A DNA stretch of 57,998 nt from Vittaforma corneae ATCC 50505 (taxonomy: Eukaryota; Microsporidia; Nosematidae), in assembly GCF_000231115.1 (NCBI RefSeq), contig NW_006889850.1:1-57998 (forward strand), read 5' to 3'. Under the pieces are notes generated by a model. It did not search any database. It saw only the letters and a list, made by a program, of their open reading frames with translations, and was not told the origin of the DNA. Within the stretch, counting starts at the first letter, position 1. The number at the start of each line of letters is the position of its first letter. Below, piece by piece: positions 15,644-44,546 of this stretch. The position numbers were made by a program, and so were the translations under genes.

Positions 15644-18187
15644 ATGACATTTCTTTTAAACCTCCTGCTAAATATCTGCAAGATATTTTCAAAAAGCCAC
15701 GAAACATATGTTGTGCAGACGTCAGACAATAAATTGCACTTTGTTACTTCTACGGTCGAGTCGCACCAGCTTTATGTTGATCCGTCTGTCAGAATTGTTG
15801 AGGATGATGGATTGACTCTTCGTGAAATAGAAGACAGGTTTGCGCTGCAATTAAAAGAAAACATGACTGCAGACAGCACAAGCATGATTAAAAAAGCAAA
15901 TAGAATTGATCGAATTTATGTCTCGCAGGATGGATTTATTGATGTTTTTGGTCGTAAAGTTTTTATCGATGAAATTCTGGCTCATCCAATGATCGAGGAG
16001 GGAATGTATATCGCAGCGACTCAAGAACATCATCCTAGCATCATAAACAAGACTGTTGTAATCATGGCGGTCACAAGAATACATCTGCTCGATCTTTTCA
16101 GTCTTACTTCAAGGGTTTTGAAGGTCAGTCAGGTACTCTATCTTTACGAAACCTTTATCAGCATCCCAAAAAAGGAAAAGGAGATATTTTTAAACAAGAA
16201 ATGGTGGAAATTCGACTCCAAAATTATTGCCGTGTATATTTTGAAGGAAAAGGACGGCTTGAATTTTATGCTAAGAGTGTTTAATAGGTCTGACGTGGCA
16301 GTATACAAGCACAGAATTCAAAGAAATTCGTCCAAGAAGCTGCCCATACTGTTTGTCTGTAGTGTTGTCTTCTCTATAATTTTTTATTTGAATCGAAATC
16401 TCAGATTTGAGTCTTGTATTGTAAAAAACAAGCTGTATACCGGCAAATTTATTAAAAAGGATTGTCTGATATACAAAGTCACTAACTCATTCTTTAAAGA
16501 GCACAAGAGGGTGTACGGAGATCTAAAGTGTAGCAATTTGGTCAATATACTTAATGAGACGGAAGGGTGGCTCTATCCAGTAATTGTTACCGAAAACACA
16601 ATTCAGTTCTCGCCCCCAAACGATGCCAGTAAAGAGGAGAATCAAAATGAAAAATCAAGCAGCTCAAGCGAGGCATGCTCTATTGAAAATGACAGAAACC
16701 TGACAAATGGACATAGGGGGAATATGTCTAGGGAAGATATCCTCAAAGACAGCGACGAAAATCAAAGCATGGAAACATCCAAGACGTATGCAGGCTACTT
16801 TGCCTCGAAAATCTATGATGAAGCCCAGCAGGAGTTCATTAAAAAATTCAAAAACGATCTTTTAATAGTTGTACAGAGTGTTCGATATCTACATTCTTCT
16901 GGAGTCGTTCATGGGCGTATTTCCCCCGAGAACATACGTGTTTCCGATAACGGCCAAATTAAGCTCCAAAGTATGTTTGACAACCAAGGATGGAGATCGA
17001 TGAAGCAGCTGAGGAATATCAAAAATAAAAACTACAGTCCTGACGAGTCGGATGACATGTTTTCTCTTGGATGTGTTTTGCACTATTATCTTACTGGATA
17101 TCATCCTTTTGATCTGCGTGACTTCATTAAGAAAGAGCGGAAGGCATTTAAAAAAACCAACGATAGGCTTTCTGACTACGCTCAAAAGAAACTAGGGAAT
17201 GAGATAGACACCAGCTGCAAAAATGACACAGAGGCGTGCACGCTTTCAGATACACCCTTAGCTGAGAATGGCATTTCAGAATCCAGGGCAAAGCCGTGCT
17301 CTCAAAATATACTCTCAAGGTCTAAGTTGTTGAACTGCATCTTTGGATTCACTACATCGGCCATTTGCTGCTTTAAACTACGTTTTGCTAGATCGCTCAT
17401 TTTGTTGCACAGACCGGCTTTCTATATGTGCCGCTCCTTCGTTTCGAGCCTTTCCAACCTATTTGGATTTACCCACAAATACCTCAATTTTCCAGTGCAC
17501 ACAACAGTAGTCGTTTGCAAATTTTTGAGTTTCTTCAAAAGCACTTATAAAGTTATCTTGACTATATGGGGATGCATTGTGAAGTTCGTCCGTAAATTTC
17601 CGAGGCTCTTTCTGGAGACTTCTCCTGCTTCTCCTTCCTTGGCCTACCATAGAGTTCTTTCAGACGAAATTTCTAAATATATTGAATATAATGTCCTGTA
17701 CAGCACCTATAGGATCAGGCTGGAGGACCAAGTTGAGCACGATCTCGTGTATCACTGTATTAAATCTCCTCTTACACAGGCAAAGTTCAGGCTTGTCAGC
17801 CATCCATATTTCTGGGATAATAGCAAATGTCTGGAATTCATATGCGATGCCTCTGATTTTATTGAAACCAATTCAAACTTCAAGCCTAGGCTTGAGAGAA
17901 GCAGGAAAGTGGTGTTTCTTGGCTCTTGGATTGACTATTTAGATGTCTCTATGGTCAAGAGTGTATCTTCTAAGCGCACATATGACCACCAGAGTATCTG
18001 TGATCTGATAAGATTTATTAGGAACTGCCATAGACACTACCAAGAGCTAAGAAATGAAGAGCTGTTTGGAACACTTGAGGGTAAGCTGTTCTACTATCTT
18101 TCACATAAGTTTCCTGAGCTTCTGATGTTTCTTTATCGAAACCCAGTTTTCAAAGATCAGCCTGTGTTAAGAAAATATTATGAATAA
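15644..18187 (+). CDS. IRE1-like ER stress sensor: pseudokinase plus KEN RNase
   Basis: 847 aa. A hydrophobic N-terminus (residues 1-14) can act as a signal. A beta-rich luminal segment follows to about 230, then a membrane span at 233-250. The kinase region keeps the ATP-site Lys (LIYK, K278), but HRD-x-K-P-x-N has become HGRISPEN (423-430) and no DFG follows, so phosphotransfer is unlikely. SDDMFSLGCVLHYYLTGYHPF (469-489) is a clear IRE1 C-lobe match. After a long hydrophobic/basic insert (about 560-670) comes SHPYFWDNSKCLEFICDASD and a full KEN domain. The RNase catalytic set is retained: Y780, R793, N794 and H798, equivalent to human Y892, R905, N906 and H910. IRE1 splices a bZIP mRNA in the unfolded protein response. 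Single unbroken frame. Confidence 0.88.
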   Translation: MTFLLNLLLNICKIFSKSHETYVVQTSDNKLHFVTSTVESHQLYVDPSVRIVEDDGLTLREIEDRFALQLKENMTADSTSMIKKANRIDRIYVSQDGFIDVFGRKVFIDEILAHPMIEEGMYIAATQEHHPSIINKTVVIMAVTRIHLLDLFSLTSRVLKVSQVLYLYETFISIPKKEKEIFLNKKWWKFDSKIIAVYILKEKDGLNFMLRVFNRSDVAVYKHRIQRNSSKKLPILFVCSVVFSIIFYLNRNLRFESCIVKNKLYTGKFIKKDCLIYKVTNSFFKEHKRVYGDLKCSNLVNILNETEGWLYPVIVTENTIQFSPPNDASKEENQNEKSSSSSEACSIENDRNLTNGHRGNMSREDILKDSDENQSMETSKTYAGYFASKIYDEAQQEFIKKFKNDLLIVVQSVRYLHSSGVVHGRISPENIRVSDNGQIKLQSMFDNQGWRSMKQLRNIKNKNYSPDESDDMFSLGCVLHYYLTGYHPFDLRDFIKKERKAFKKTNDRLSDYAQKKLGNEIDTSCKNDTEACTLSDTPLAENGISESRAKPCSQNILSRSKLLNCIFGFTTSAICCFKLRFARSLILLHRPAFYMCRSFVSSLSNLFGFTHKYLNFPVHTTVVVCKFLSFFKSTYKVILTIWGCIVKFVRKFPRLFLETSPASPSLAYHRVLSDEISKYIEYNVLYSTYRIRLEDQVEHDLVYHCIKSPLTQAKFRLVSHPYFWDNSKCLEFICDASDFIETNSNFKPRLERSRKVVFLGSWIDYLDVSMVKSVSSKRTYDHQSICDLIRFIRNCHRHYQELRNEELFGTLEGKLFYYLSHKFPELLMFLYRNPVFKDQPVLRKYYE

Positions 18188-28713: not shown

Positions 28714-29984
28714 TTAATCTTTAAAGCTGAATCCAGCAGGGAGCGGCGTAATAATACTGTGGAAATGGTCTGCTATCTTTTTAAGCATGTCAGCCTCCTG
28801 TGAATTCAGAATATGCAATGCAATACCTTTTCTTCCGTACCTTCCAGACCTTCCCACCCGATGAATAAAATCGTTTTTCTCGTCAAGATTCGGAACATCA
28901 AGGCACACCACAACTGAAAGCGCCTGCACATCAATACCCCTCTTACAAAGACCAGAAGAAACAAGAATTCTAGTCTTTCCACTTTTAAAATTGTTCAAAA
29001 TTTGATTTCTCTCCTCCTGTGAAAAATCAGAGGTGATAAGCTCGCATGGGAATCCATTCTCATTGAGAGTCTTATGAATTAGAGCTGCATGGGACTTCCT
29101 GTTGTAAAAGACCATGGCCTGGGAGAGCACCTGGTTCTTGAAAATGTCCATCAAGGTGTGAGCCTTAAGAATTACTTCCTGGTCTCTTGCAGTTGGCGAA
29201 TACCCCCTTGCCAGTGACGGCCCAATGTCTACAAAGTACTGTTTGATACCCTTCAATGTTTGGTCCTCATATCTCAGATCTATTTCAACTGGCTCTTCCA
29301 CCATGTTTTTAATAACGTTGAGGTCTTGTTCAGAATAGGTGGCAGAAAAAAGAAGAGACTGAAATGACTCGGCCTTGATTGAAACAAAGATATTCTTGAC
29401 CTGTTCCTCAAAGCCCGCCTTGAGCATTTCGTCTGCTTCGTCTAAGACAAATATTTTAATCTGCGAGGTCTTGAGATGTCCGCCTTCGATCATTGAGTTA
29501 ACTCTTCCTGGTGTGCCTACGACCACTTGAGGACTTTCAGACAGCGCCGAAATATCAGCGAGCGGCGAGGTACCACCTGCAAGAAGACATACTGACACTT
29601 TCATGTATCTTCCTATTTCCTGAAACTTGGCTGCATTCTGTCCTGCTATTTCCCTTGTAGATGCTAACACAAGTACTTGGGTTCCTTAAGAGACTCGTCG
29701 ATTCGCTGCAGCGCTCCAATTACAAAGGCACCGGTTTTTCCAGTTCCAGATTGTGCCTGTGCTCTCAGATCTTTCCCTTCTGCAATGATGGGAACAGCTT
29801 TCTTTTGAATAAATGATGGATTCTCGAAACCAACGCTGTATATTCCTTTGACAAGCTCTGGTTTGAGATTGAGAGACTCCCATTTAAAGTGCGGGTCTGA
29901 AGGAGTGGTGTTCTCTATAATGTGTTTTATTTCATCCGACTCGTCGTCGAACACAACTTTTCTTGAAGTTTTTGCTTCTGCCAT
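28714..29984 (-). CDS. eIF4A-type DEAD-box RNA helicase, frame-shifted
   Basis: The first frame (ATG 29984) carries the Q motif (FENPSFIQKKA) and motif I AQSGTGKTGAF, then reads KEPKYLC-stop near 29677. Family sequence resumes one frame away as VLVLASTREIAGQ; one missing G after AAG gives KVLVLASTRE. Later motifs are GG, GTPGRV, VLDEADEML, SAT, GIDVQ and HRVGRSGRYGRKG. DEADEML and HRVGRSGRYGRKG point to eIF4A (or Fal1) rather than Dbp5. It unwinds mRNA 5' leaders for scanning. Length about 423 aa, normal. AAATTTTTTGAAATTTT lies upstream. Confidence 0.87.
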
Positions 29985-30720: not shown

Positions 30721-31904
30721 ATGAAAACATTTGCTGGGGCTTACGTTAACTTGCTGAAAACCAGCATCGGGAGTGGTGTGTTGAGCTTTCCCTATCTTTT
30801 TAAAACATATGGAATCGTAGTAACTGTTTTCCTCACGCTTATCACCGGGCTGTTTGCCACCACCGGTCTTGTTCTCTTGATGATATGCTCCCAGGTAATA
30901 GGTAGAACAGCTGACCTGAGCAAGCTTGCAGCACAGTGCTTTCCATATGCCAGAATATTCGTGGACCTGGCAGTGTTCCTCAAGTGTTTTGGTGTATCTC
31001 TCTCTTACGTAATCATCACAAGACAACTACTTCCCCCGATATTAGAAAGCTTATTTGAAAGAGCCCCTGATGTAAATCCCAGTTTATTTGCATCTCCGTC
31101 CATCACTTTACTTATTTTTCTAGGATTTGTTGGCCCATTCACATACTTCTCCAAACTTGACAAATTGAAATACACATCCTTCGTGGGTATATTTAGCATT
31201 GTTCTGGTGATTCTGGCTGCTGTTGCCAGATACATCCACACAGACACCACAGATGTCAAGATAGCATTCTTTCTCCCAATCACCATCGACTGGCTTGCAG
31301 GAATGGGAAAATTCATATTCAGCTTTACCTGCCATCAGAATATCTTTGCAGTAAATGCTGAAATAGAGGATAACTCACTTCCTAAGATGAAGAAGTTAAT
31401 ATGCACAGTGTCTATGTCGTCATTTACGCTCTACATGACGTTTGGATGGCAAACTACATGCTTTACGGATCTACGGTTTCTGAAAATGTCTTAAAGTCAT
31501 ATCCATCTGATCTACTAGCCACCTTTGTTAGATCACTCTACATAGTAGTCATGGGCGTCTCCTATCCGCTACAGATGGCTCCTGCACGGACATATTTTCT
31601 AAACATGATTGGAATTACACGACAAACTAAGAAGTATAAGATGATACACTTTATTGCAACTACCCTTCTAGTCCTATCAACTTATCTCATAGCGATTTCA
31701 GGTGTCCATCTAGGAATTGTATATTCCATAGTAGGTGCCACGGCCTCTTGTTTTATGTGTCTAATACTTCCAGCACTGTTTTACTTTAACTTAGACATTG
31801 AAAAGACATTGTCACTTATGGTAGCTGCCTATTTTTCGTTCCTCCTTGGAATTTTTATATTCACAACAACAATATTCGCAATAGTTTACAACGAAATAAA
31901 GTAG
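30721..31904 (+). CDS. AVT-type vacuolar/plasma membrane amino-acid transporter, frame-shifted
   Basis: The first frame (ATG 30721) starts AGAYVNLLKTSIGSGVLSFP, the AAAP/AVT opening motif (TM1), and runs through about seven helices to TLYMTFG. The family sequence YMLYGSTVSENVLKSYPSDL then lies in another frame, which continues to 31904. The switch falls near 31445-31455 and equals one missing base. The first frame beyond that point (QTTCFTDLRF) does not fit the family. With the join the protein is about 394 aa with ten or eleven helices, close to Avt1/Avt7-type lengths. Likely imports or mobilises amino acids, a useful function in an intracellular parasite. Confidence 0.85.
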
Positions 31905-38733: not shown

Positions 38734-40454
38734 TTAAGAAAACACAAGCTTTGAGAAAGAAAAACAAACCCAATTCATTGGCTGATCAAGCGCATATATG
38801 TTAGACCAAAACGATATTTCTCTTTCCCCGCTGAAAGTCTGGTCTTTGCCCTTGGTATCCTCATAAACCAGGCAGATATATAAAGCTGTAAAAGCGGTCA
38901 GAAGTGCATATCCAATAAATACTGGTGTGTGCATTTGTTGAGGACTGCCAAGTGGAATAAATACAGAAACAACAGCAACAACTCTATTTACAGTCAATCC
39001 TAGGAATGTGCCCGCCACTCTGTAATCTTCCGGGAAAATAAAGCCTAAAACATAAAATGGGCAGTGGCTAAGACCGAGGTTATATCCAATAGAAAAGATA
39101 TATGTAAAGATCCGAACTTGAAAGCTAAAGAAAAAGGCAATACATGATATTACTATTAGAGCAGATGACAGGACGACGGCAGGCTTTATATCCCAACTTT
39201 TAAATATCAAACTGGATATCAACAAACAACCCACACTAAGAAGGAGAGTGTAGATAACATGGTTTTGGTAGTTATCCTCCCCATAGAAAATCTTTGGATT
39301 TGAAAAAATTTGATTGATGCCACACAAATTAAAAGTAGTGTATAAAAGAACAATGATGGAAATAGAGCGGAATGAGTCGCGAGCTTTGATGAGAGATCTC
39401 AATGTTTCGTTGTTTTCAGTTTTCTCTTTTGAAGACTATGCACATATACAAAAAAACAGGAAGGATAAAACATAAGACTGCCATAGAAATCATCGACCAG
39501 AAGTAGTACTTAACAATGAATGAATACAACAGATTGAAGACTAGAATGCCCGAAGCAAACCCACACACATTCAGGGCTGAAAAGAATGGTTTAAAAGAAG
39601 TTGGGGACAGCTCGCAGAGGTAGGTTGGAAGATAGCTGACAATGATTCCAGCAGCAAATCCGATAAGAAACCTACCGATGAGTATAGCAATAAGATTTTG
39701 GTAGAAAGCAGAACAAAGAAGACCCACAGCGAAGGAGTAGCTGGTTACAATAAAGGCTCTTCTAAATTTGCACTGGAATATGTAAAAGAATATATGGGAT
39801 ATTGTGGCACCGGTGAACAGAACTCCAAAGCATAGGGCAAGGAATTTGCTTTCCTCCATACCAAAATTGGCCATGCTACTTGCACTGATCGCCTGTACAG
39901 TTAAAACACTAGCACCGTACATGAATTCCAGGAGTGTAGGAGTGATAGCGGAGTATACGTCTTTAAACCTCAATGGCCGTTTTTTATCACTAATATCGCT
40001 AAGCTTATCAAATCGTTGCATAAATGAGCGAATTGGCCATAAAATCCATTGAAAAAATACTACACAGCAGCTGCACAGTCCCCAGAATGCTAGCATAACA
40101 TTTTCTGTCTGACACATTCGTATCAGCTTCAGCATTTAGTTCTTGCTTATTGGTTCCATTGCCCTGACAGTAGACCGGTCCATCTCCGTCAAGAAATGAT
40201 TCGTCTTCCTTTGGATCACCATTTTCATCCTTGTGTTTAGGTTGTTTCTGCTCAAGTGTGCAATATTCTAATGGATCGCTTTCTTCACGTTTATTTTCTC
40301 CATATTGATCTGTCAAAGGTTGTGACGTTGAATGCTCAAGAGTCGGATAGGCTGATGATGAGACTGCACTTGACCATATTCCATACATAAGCACTTGTGC
40401 TCTGTGAATCGCCTGCAGTGATCTGATGATGCCATACTTTTGAGTAGTTTTCAT
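38734..40454 (-). CDS. MFS sugar transporter, split by two one-base shifts
   Basis: ATG 40454 is preceded by CGCCC and two AAAATTTT-type runs. A hydrophilic N-terminal region of about 100 residues comes first. After a hydrophobic stretch the frame ends at TGA near 40014 (YATI-stop), one base from DKLSDISDKKRPLRFKD, which continues through GRFLIGFAAGIIVSYLPTYL with CELSP (a sugar-porter motif) to VFKREN-stop near 39416. One base further on, TENNETLRSLIKARDSFRSI carries the C-terminal six helices to 38734. Each join equals one extra base (TTT and AAAA runs). About 573 aa when joined. Likely a hexose importer. Confidence 0.82.
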
Positions 40455-43297: not shown

Positions 43298-44546
43298 ATG
43301 AAATTAGTTGACAAAATAAAAAACTAAAAGCAAGACAGATACTCACAAGTAGAGGACTGCCTACGGTAGAAGTTGAATTTATTCTTGAAAACACATCTGT
43401 AATATCCTCCGTGCCATCAGGAAAATCAACAGGTGGCAAAGAAGCTTGTGTTATTGTTGACAACCAATCATCGTACTTTGGACAATCAGTATGGAGTATT
43501 GTCGAAAAGATAAATGGCGATGCCAATATGCTTTTGGATATTAGTATTGATAACCCTAGTGACCTCGATGACTATTTAATAGCTGCTGACGGAACCGAAG
43601 ACAAGTCAAGGCTTGGTGCAAACTACACTTTGCCGCTGAGTATCTGCTGTTACAAACTATTTTCACACTGCTTAAGCCTAAAGCTATGGAGATATATTCA
43701 ATGCTTAACAGAATCTAAATACACTATTCCAACACCCTACTTTAACATTTTGAATGGTGGGGTTCATTCAGGAAACAACATCAGCTGCCAAGAGATAATG
43801 GTTGCATTTCAAGAATCCTCATTTGAAAAGAACCTTGAGCGCGCTGTAGAGCTATACTATTCATTAAGGGATGTGATCATAGAAGAGTTCGGTTTAATAT
43901 TCACCTCTGTTGGTGATGAGGGTGGATTTGCACCGCCAATCAAAAATTTGGAAGAGGGCTTAAATTTGATATTGAAAAGTGCCAAGAAAGCCTCAATAAC
44001 CAACTTTAGAATAGGACTTGATTTGGCTGCCAATTCATTCTATTCCGAGGTGTGTATGTGGTTGATGGTCAAAGTTTTGATGGAAAATCTCTGGCCAATC
44101 TGTATAATAGACTCATTAAAAACTATCCAATTGCCAGTATTGAGGATCCTTTTGCAGAGACCGATATTGACAGTTGGAGGTATTTGTACGGATTGGTTGG
44201 TGATAAAGTCACCATCATTGCTGATGATCTGACTGTTACAAACCCAAAAATAATTATGGAGCTTAGGGGTCTTTTTAATGGCGTTCTTATAAAACCAAAC
44301 CAAGTTGGAACAGTGAGCGAAGCAATAAAGGCTATTCAAGTAGCCAGAAGTCTAAATATGAAAACAATGGTATCACATAGATCAGCCGAGACAGAAGACA
44401 CCTTCATCGCACATCTAGCAGTTGGAATGGGCAGTGATTATGTGAAGGCAGGCGCTCCATGCAGAGGCGAAAGAATTAGCAAATACAACGAATTTCTAAG
44501 GATTGAGGAAGAAATTAACCGGAGCAGTATCCAAAACAACCACTAA
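43298..44546 (+). CDS. ENO: Enolase, divergent and split by two one-base shifts
   Basis: Glycolytic 2-phosphoglycerate dehydratase. ATG 43298 follows CCCT and opens MKLVDKIKN-stop. One missing A in the A6 run there gives IKKLKARQILTSRGLPTVEV and joins PSGKSTGGKEA. At about 44050 a missing G moves the frame from NSFYSE to GVYVVDGQSFDGKSLANLYN. Catalytic positions survive: His (GGVHSGN), Glu (CQEIMV), Glu (GDEGGFAPP), the metal ligands in GLDLAA, IEDPFAE and ADDLTV, Lys (IKPNQVGT) and VSHRSAETEDTFIA. The flexible loop is SGKSTG instead of SGASTG. About 415 aa when joined, slightly short. Confidence 0.9.

Follow-up and report, generated by a model that had tools for sequence, protein, structure and literature searches.

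The window analysed here, the whole 57,998-nt stretch of contig NW_006889850.1 from Vittaforma corneae ATCC 50505, contains an ORF of 847 aa (positions 15644..18187; this and all features below lie on the + strand) that is predicted to encode a microsporidian IRE1-like pseudokinase-RNase. A profile search of the organism's own 2.90 Mb genome with PF06479 (Ribonuc_2-5A) returned this ORF as the single KEN-domain match. In Pfam, the window protein was matched by Ribonuc_2-5A (E-value 6.2e-24) and by Pkinase (PF00069; E-value 4.9e-9, residues 403-505), in agreement with an earlier note on this DNA that had recognised the C-lobe block of IRE1. Its cytosolic half (residues 240-847) could be aligned end to end with human and locust IRE1 by hhalign (probability 99.8, E-value 9.8e-30). 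The top PDB match was IRE1 (1e-18), RNase L being far weaker (2.2e-5), and a second comparison gave the same ranking (2.1e-30 for IRE1 versus 3.6e-10 for RNase L). On sequence, the kinase-like part is joined directly to the KEN domain. The 847-aa protein is probably a membrane RNase of the IRE1 type in microsporidia, with a kinase reduced to a structural pseudokinase.

Topology and conservation among homologues

Family counts in this study refer to 17 aligned homologues, i.e., the window protein and 16 others. Protein searches with an alignment and with a single sequence as query returned an identical set of 15 rows. When the query was restricted to the KEN region, P0016, P0017 and a canonical IRE1, P0018 (filed under Schistocerca), were added, and P0015, which was retained from the single-sequence search, was not recovered. 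P0018, the locust IRE1 with a canonical kinase, was kept outside the 17-row counts and used as the outgroup and as a control. Row P0014, of 578 aa, lacks part of its N-terminus. PF00069 was matched in 17/17 family members at E<=0.1, and PF06479 in 17/17. The set consists of relatives near enough to share words with the window protein, and microsporidia with a live IRE1 kinase may exist outside it. In the tree, the window protein is sister to P0002 (support 100/99), while the deep order is unsure because of the very long branches of the Pancytospora and locust rows. Contamination by a host IRE1 was considered and rejected: both named relatives are microsporidia, and the SSU rRNA is microsporidian (1152.9 bits, top in its clan). 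Among viral contigs, 29 pattern matches contained no relative.

The N-terminus (residues 1-22; 15644..15709) is signal-peptide-like by eye and falls under the hydropathy threshold, and it may target the protein to the ER. It is followed by a presumed luminal region (residues 23-228; 15710..16327) and a predicted transmembrane segment (residues 232-250; 16337..16393), with a Kyte-Doolittle window mean of 1.92 at residue 232. By hydropathy, this is the one TM-like stretch of the window protein, and it precedes the kinase-like part in a presumed orientation, as the transmembrane layout proposed in the earlier note would have it. A corresponding stretch was found ahead of the kinase-like part in 15/17 homologues, but not in P0006 and P0013 at the threshold used. 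An additional hydrophobic stretch is present in the insert of P0002, P0007 and P0014 and in the luminal part of P0015.

Homology of the luminal region to IRE1 luminal domains was not detectable. In hhalign, the comparison with the locust sensor gave 19.8, below shuffles (up to 23.0), and that with human alpha, human beta and locust gave 14.7, also below shuffles (up to 17.8); the best stretch of the latter is collinear with human IRE1 where the luminal domain begins and is not significant. The eight Pfam families matched by the 17 members include neither a PQQ nor an ankyrin family. The mean identity of the luminal region across the family is nevertheless 41.9%, on par with the N-lobe, which argues that this region has a job. 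Mean pairwise identity reaches 57.4% in KEN, 52.4% in the C-lobe from alphaE to alphaF and 42.3% in the N-lobe, and drops to 15.0% in the alphaF-alphaG insert (residues 501-655; 17144..17608); between the window protein and its nearest relative the respective values are 89.9%, 85.0%, 77.0% and 36.7%. Since both lobes are far more conserved than the adjoining insert, the dead kinase is retained. The insert varies in length and sequence. Its net charge is positive in 12/17 homologues, and the part spanning residues 540-655, a sub-range chosen post hoc after the result for 501-655, is cationic in 16/17.

Kinase-like region and KEN domain

The segment of the C-lobe from alphaE to alphaF (residues 401-500; 16844..17143), which contains most of the PF00069 match, has 16/100 invariant columns in the 17 rows. 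Where HRD is expected, the window protein has H423-G424-R425 (16910..16918), and the position of the HRD Asp is occupied by Arg in 15 homologues, Lys in one and Gln in one, with Asp in 0/17. The position of yeast K799 is Cys in 16 and Ser in one (Lys in 0/17), and the catalytic-loop Asn, N430, is invariant (17/17). This Asn is separated from a conserved Gly-Trp by 19 residues in 15/17 homologues and by 23 in 2/17, compared with 43 in human IRE1 and 36 in locust IRE1. In the profile alignment, the window protein has a gap opposite the human DFG Asp and SRRS phosphosite stretch, and both this alignment and the motif scan place at Q442-W450 (16967..16993) a junction that lacks DFG and most of the activation loop. 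The motif scan found no DFG-like triplet in 16 homologues; in P0016 it keyed on an unrelated PEN, and the correct loop, read separately, is also without DFG. The rest of the C-lobe, corresponding to the alphaG to alphaI region (residues 656-718; 17609..17797), was placed by homology alignment.

Sixteen homologues besides the window protein thus share this kinase state. By contrast, a CK1-like kinase (so labelled by eye) encoded in the window carries a normal YRD and DFG, and the locust IRE1 from the same search has HRD and DMG. On these grounds an assembly artefact is not likely to account for the dead kinase, and chance is rejected. The earlier note had described a change of HRD to HGR and a missing DFG, and had suggested a search of related genomes for this state. 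Loss of the HRD Asp and of DFG holds throughout the family, the second in a stronger form, as the deletion in 17/17 removes DFG together with most of the activation loop, where a mere mutation might have been expected. Its remark that the KEN residues are all kept is equally well founded. The KEN endoribonuclease domain (PF06479; residues 719-847; 17798..18184) has 26/129 invariant columns in the 17 rows. Y780 (17981..17983; yeast Y1043) and the catalytic residues R793, N794 and H798 within R793-N794-C795-H796-R797-H798 (18020..18037; yeast R1056, N1057 and H1061) are each invariant in 17/17 aligned homologues, and the domain would be expected to be active as an RNase.

The N-lobe remnant (residues 257-330; 16412..16633) leads to a different conclusion from that of the earlier note, according to which the ATP-site Lys survives and nucleotide binding may remain. 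The hhalign profile alignment with human and locust IRE1, whose posteriors are moderate in the N-lobe, maps the VAVK Lys of human IRE1 to Y277 (16472..16474), a Tyr in 17/17. The Lys noted previously is the adjoining K278, one residue off the ATP site, and it is variable (K6 R4 Q4 H2 E1). Moreover, the G-loop glycines are replaced by E, C and K (0/3 kept), and the alphaC Glu position is L299. With regard to the residues of a catalytically competent kinase, the window protein therefore has Y277 for the VAIK Lys, R425 for the HRD Asp and a deletion for the DFG Asp.

Activation of the RNase

Because the catalytic machinery and most of the phosphorylated loop are absent in 17/17, activation of the RNase cannot rest on autophosphorylation, which supports the phosphorylation-independent activation put forward in the earlier note. 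We consider it reasonably probable that the protein is a membrane KEN RNase in which the pseudokinase acts as a dimer scaffold independently of nucleotide and phosphorylation, and the RNase fires on clustering. The pseudokinase would be a dimerisation platform held in an RNase-competent form, and clustering through the luminal or membrane part alone would pair the KEN domains. The RNase could then fire without ATP, ADP or phosphorylation, in the manner of the yeast D797N/K799N bypass allele. The wider proposal of a lineage-wide IRE1 that is free of both nucleotide and phosphorylation, has a new or rebuilt luminal sensor and has decay of ER-bound mRNAs as its sole output is more tentative and falls somewhat short of an even chance. 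Stress sensing is an assumption, since the luminal region gives nothing above shuffles. The unfolded protein response considered in the earlier note is likewise tentative: the searches gave no match of the luminal part to IRE1 sensors and no bZIP with a basic region, although the RtcB ligase of this genome could rejoin exons cut by IRE1.

Known systems share parts of this arrangement. IRE1/Ire1p (ERN1) has the same one-TM topology, a single gene, a kinase-like and KEN half alignable end to end and the KEN catalytic residues. Unlike IRE1/Ire1p, the microsporidian protein lacks the HRD Asp, DFG, a full activation loop and the ATP-site Lys, and it has a variable alphaF-alphaG insert and a short luminal region. 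Yeast D797 and K799, which we take to map onto HRDLK of the catalytic loop, are both replaced in the family (Asp by Arg, Lys or Gln; Lys by Cys or Ser), but the yeast allele is an engineered point mutant with DFG and the loop intact, whereas the microsporidian state is natural, present in 17/17 and accompanied by deletion of the loop. According to PMC7904763, D797N/K799N Ire1 needs neither autophosphorylation nor ADP for its activation and shows reduced splicing at full activation and reduced cleavage in vitro, and the corresponding allele of Candida glabrata is described as failing to complement (PMC3561209). Loss of the kinase is therefore not neutral everywhere. RNase L also joins a dead kinase to a KEN domain, and its pseudokinase is thought to act as a homodimerisation scaffold (PMC4718504), the role that the microsporidian pseudokinase would have; RNase L differs in its ankyrin repeats and 2-5A control.

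RNase L is also the model for a rather improbable alternative, in which the RNase is switched by non-canonical binding of a nucleotide, or of some other small ligand, to the pseudokinase; the nucleotide binding suggested in the earlier note is a weak form of this idea. The invariant N430 would fit such a ligand, the RNase L pseudokinase is described as binding and being activated by ATP, and unusual nucleotide-binding modes are considered possible for pseudokinases (PMC4718504). However, RNase L holds its nucleotide canonically, via conserved kinase residues (PMC4718504), whereas the profile alignment shows none of the G-loop glycines, ATP-site Lys, alphaC Glu or DFG Asp in place here, and Lys occurs at the adjoining position 278 in just 6/17. 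It is also quite improbable that the protein is an ER-surface RNase with an unrelated luminal part and no stress sensor, constitutive or differently triggered, serving RNA quality control or acting against foreign RNA. Its unrecognisable luminal region, the cationic insert and the loss of regulation inside the kinase, the switch loop being absent, are in line with this idea, but the IRE1-like succession of some 200 residues, a single TM, a kinase-like part and KEN, as well as the conservation of the luminal region, speak against it. That the gene is a functionless fossil heading for loss, as in Encephalitozoon, is hardly credible. Although kinase motifs have been lost and E. cuniculi is reported to be without Ire1 (PMC2078597), the ORF is open across 847 aa, KEN is the most conserved part in the 17 homologues with its catalytic residues fixed, and the two kinase lobes are conserved while the insert drifts.

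Should the scaffold reading hold, it would bear on what the kinase of IRE1 is needed for. So far, engineered mutants have supplied the arguments on whether its role is that of an enzyme, of a switch operated by nucleotide binding or solely of a scaffold for the dimer. A lineage that has in nature deleted the catalytic machinery but kept its RNase residues unchanged would amount to an independent evolutionary test and would reveal the minimum requirements of an IRE1. Some microsporidia would then also possess their own ER stress branch, whereas the E. cuniculi kinome is reported without Ire1.

Decay and splicing as possible outputs

The main output of the RNase is probably mRNA decay, and with less weight than the scaffold role we propose that ER-bound mRNAs would be degraded rather than a bZIP mRNA spliced. 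An XRN_N nuclease is present in the genome. The Ire1 of S. pombe, an active kinase with a decay-only output, likewise has Asp at the Sc K992 position, which lies at the dimer interface and is Asp in 17/17 of our homologues. Unlike S. pombe Ire1, which has Arg at the Sc1059 position, the microsporidian family has mostly His (15, with Asn in one and Gln in one). The pombe-like, decay-competent pattern is described as Asp at Sc992 and, in its full form, also Lys/Arg at Sc1059 (PMC8104961).

An RtcB ligase is present (E-value 1.4e-122, intact ORF of 526 aa) and leaves splicing as a less probable output. In a canonical unfolded protein response, one intron would be excised from a regulator mRNA and the exons joined by RtcB, the target being too diverged for bZIP models. 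RTCB acts in the unfolded protein response of animals and has been reported from microsporidia (PMC13247085), and one coiled-coil ORF, at C2:97601, clears the bZIP_1 cut-off (29.2 bits with neighbours versus 27.6). However, this match covers model positions 29-63 of 64, and it and three other places were taken as coiled coils: all four places matched by bZIP_1/bZIP_2 contain the zipper half only, in frames without a basic-region pattern. bZIP_Maf had no matches in the genome. These bZIP searches had no eukaryotic positive control, and introns could hide a target. Archease was not found in the genome, nor was a Trl1-type ligase domain, the search for which was silent in controls too. The ligase is already accounted for by tRNA splicing, given a tRNA-endonuclease gene and a tRNA-Ile(UAU) whose sequence appears to include an intron. 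We consider canonical splicing an unlikely output. The microsporidian RNases that PMC8104961 set aside as 'difficult to place microsporidian RNases' and removed from its alignment, here compared by description only, match the same Pfam model, Ribonuc_2-5A, as the window protein.

Loss of kinase motifs and retention of RNase residues

The IRE1-like ORF, located at window positions 15644-18187 (+), is a single open reading frame of 847 codons. Pfam placed Ribonuc_2-5A (KEN) at residues 730-845 of the encoded protein (E 6.2e-24) and confined the Pkinase match to residues 403-505 (E 4.9e-9), where alignment to the 263-position profile starts only at position 101; the kinase N-lobe was not recognized by this profile. 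When solved structures were searched, IRE1 was the best match of the window protein (E 1e-18) and RNase L was much weaker (2.2e-5), and the family profile gave 2.1e-30 for IRE1 vs 3.6e-10 for RNase L. Only one KEN match was found in the genome of this organism (2.90 Mb, 35 contigs), for whose SSU rRNA the microsporidian model was the top of its clan (1152.9 bits, full model covered).

Three protein searches resulted in 16 homologues of the pseudokinase-KEN type besides the window protein, including its sister P0002 (72% identity) and the microsporidian proteins P0008 (Glugoides intestinalis) and P0015 (Pancytospora philotis). One canonical IRE1 (P0018, filed under Schistocerca gregaria) was also found and served as outgroup and control; it was retrieved by a KEN-region search scoring just 91 candidates.

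The HRD-less and DFG-less state, which the earlier note proposed to look for in relatives, was present in 17 of the 17 homologues found, window protein included. As that note had claimed, HRD is replaced in the window protein (H423-G424-R425). The position of the HRD Asp is occupied by Arg in 15 rows, Lys in one and Gln in one, with P0015 having an Asp one residue earlier, and the position of yeast K799 by Cys in 16 and Ser in one; we take yeast D797 and K799 to be the Asp and Lys of the HRDLK motif. An invariant Pro-Glu-Asn follows this Cys/Ser position of the catalytic loop in the 17 rows. The spacing from the invariant Asn to the invariant Gly-Trp is 19 residues in 15 of the 17 rows and 23 in the remaining two, compared with 43 in human IRE1 and 36 in locust IRE1. 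When the cytosolic half was aligned by hhalign to a two-row human and locust IRE1 profile (probability 99.8, E 9.8e-30), both the DFG Asp, in agreement with its reported absence, and the SRRS phosphosite stretch fell in alignment gaps. In the same alignment, the three G-loop glycines correspond to E256, C258 and K261, the alphaC Glu to L299, the HRD Asp to R425, and the VAVK Lys to Y277, a Tyr in 17/17. The ATP-site Lys said to survive, presumably K278, is a variable residue (K6 R4 Q4 H2 E1) next to an invariant Tyr at the aligned site; this N-lobe mapping has moderate posterior confidence and is likely rather than certain. As controls, locust IRE1 P0018 keeps HRD and DMG, and YRD and DFG are both found in a CK1-like kinase encoded elsewhere in the window.

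The reported retention of the KEN residues Y780, R793, N794 and H798 held in all rows of the 17-row alignment, at yeast Y1043, R1056, N1057 and H1061, of which Y1043, R1056 and N1057 are KEN catalytic residues. H1061 is named as catalytic in a passage of PMC8104961. The yeast numbering was anchored on confirmed letters and agrees with E988, K992, R1039, H1044, Y1059 and H1061 of that paper, but not with the H1018A construct in its plasmid table (Phe at 1018 here). Since 26 of 129 KEN columns are invariant, the chance that all four named sites are invariant is approximately (26/129)^4 = 0.002. At the sequence level, the kinase machinery is lost and the RNase residues are retained, and the pseudokinase-KEN state is a real feature common to the 17 homologues found, a variant form of IRE1. 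RNase activity, nucleotide independence, sensing and output are predicted.

Conservation of the individual regions

Mean pairwise identity among the 17 homologues was 57.4% for KEN, 52.4% for alphaE-alphaF, 44.3% for alphaG-alphaI, 42.3% for the N-lobe remnant, 41.9% for the luminal region and 15.0% for the alphaF-alphaG insert; between the window protein and P0002, the corresponding values were 89.9, 85.0, 82.5, 77.0, 79.1 and 36.7%. Because the identities of the lobes far exceed that of the insert, the dead kinase looks selectively retained, with the insert drifting.

This fast-evolving insert (window 17144-17608, +) is 26-155 residues long across homologues and carries a net positive charge in 12/17. 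Its part 540-655, picked post hoc after the whole-insert charge result, is net positive in 16/17, those with 29-48% hydrophobic residues; in P0015 this part is nearly absent (16 residues, net -3). The inserts of P0002 and of two further homologues, P0007 and P0014, reach the hydropathy of TM segments. Our guess is that the insert may contact membrane or RNA.

The luminal part of the window protein comprises about 200 residues. Of the eight Pfam families with a match in the 17 rows (E<=0.1), none was a propeller or PQQ family, and four were single weak matches. The luminal hhalign score was 19.8 against locust IRE1 (shuffle maximum 23.0, 30 shuffles) and 14.7 against human and locust IRE1 (shuffle maximum 17.8, 40 shuffles). 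Because these scores lie within those of shuffles and no propeller family was matched, stress sensing is an assumption taken from topology.

Proposed scaffold model and predicted RNase output

The simplest model that fits the pseudokinase is one in which it would serve as a dimerization scaffold for the KEN RNase. According to a passage of PMC7904763 citing Rubio et al., neither autophosphorylation nor ADP is needed for activation of yeast D797N/K799N Ire1; the same two positions are altered in 17/17 homologues, and here the loop is additionally gone. Two reports count against the scaffold model: D797N/K799N lowers cleavage in vitro and splicing at full activation (in the same passage), and a matching C. 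glabrata allele fails to complement, according to a passage of PMC3561209. In RNase L, a pseudokinase is able to drive the KEN domain, yet it binds ATP canonically (as stated in part of PMC4718504), whereas the family of 17 probably cannot.

Regarding output, a section of PMC8104961 associates decay-type RNases with Asp or Glu at Sc992 together with Lys or Arg at Sc1059. Half of this pattern is present in the 17 homologues: Sc992 is Asp in 17/17, but Sc1059 is His in 15, Asn in one and Gln in one, with an invariant Arg next; Sc988 is Glu in 14 and Asp in three. An XRN_N nuclease is present in the genome and could clear cut mRNAs. As for splicing, bZIP_1 and bZIP_2 matched four distinct places in the genome, by the zipper half only and one above the bZIP_1 cut-off; the basic-region pattern was absent from all four, and bZIP_Maf had no match in this genome. 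An open 526-aa RtcB RNA ligase ORF was identified by profile match (G000:C2:103770-105188). Its usual partner archease was not found in the genome by a search positive in 6/14 control genomes, and a tRNA-ligase domain search, run without a positive control, gave no match there. Judging by gene content, RtcB has a second job here, tRNA splicing, because a tRNA endonuclease gene is present together with a 105-base tRNA match (G000:C27:5755-5859) read by eye as an intron-bearing tRNA-Ile(UAU), where ARAGORN with bacterial settings made no call.

Previous descriptions and neighboring genes

The gene itself is already known, P0008 being annotated as 'ire1' by NCBI; neither the abstract nor the protein-domain section of the Glugoides paper (PMC12449221) mentions IRE1. 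Among the matches listed in open-licence literature on microsporidian IRE1/UPR, kinome, RIDD and IRE1 pseudokinases, no dead-kinase microsporidian IRE1 was described, a silence that is weak evidence of novelty. A passage of PMC2078597 reports E. cuniculi to be without Ire1, and the methods of PMC8104961 state that 'difficult to place microsporidian RNases' were excluded from alignment.

Four other genes in the window, named by eye, are each split into two ORFs with differing frames or a gap: eIF4A-like helicase (28714-29984), amino-acid-transporter-like (30721-31904), sugar-transporter-like (38734-40135) and enolase-like (43411-44546), which reflects either small assembly indels or genuine frame changes. 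HSP70 matches on genome contigs C1 and C21 are likewise fragmented.
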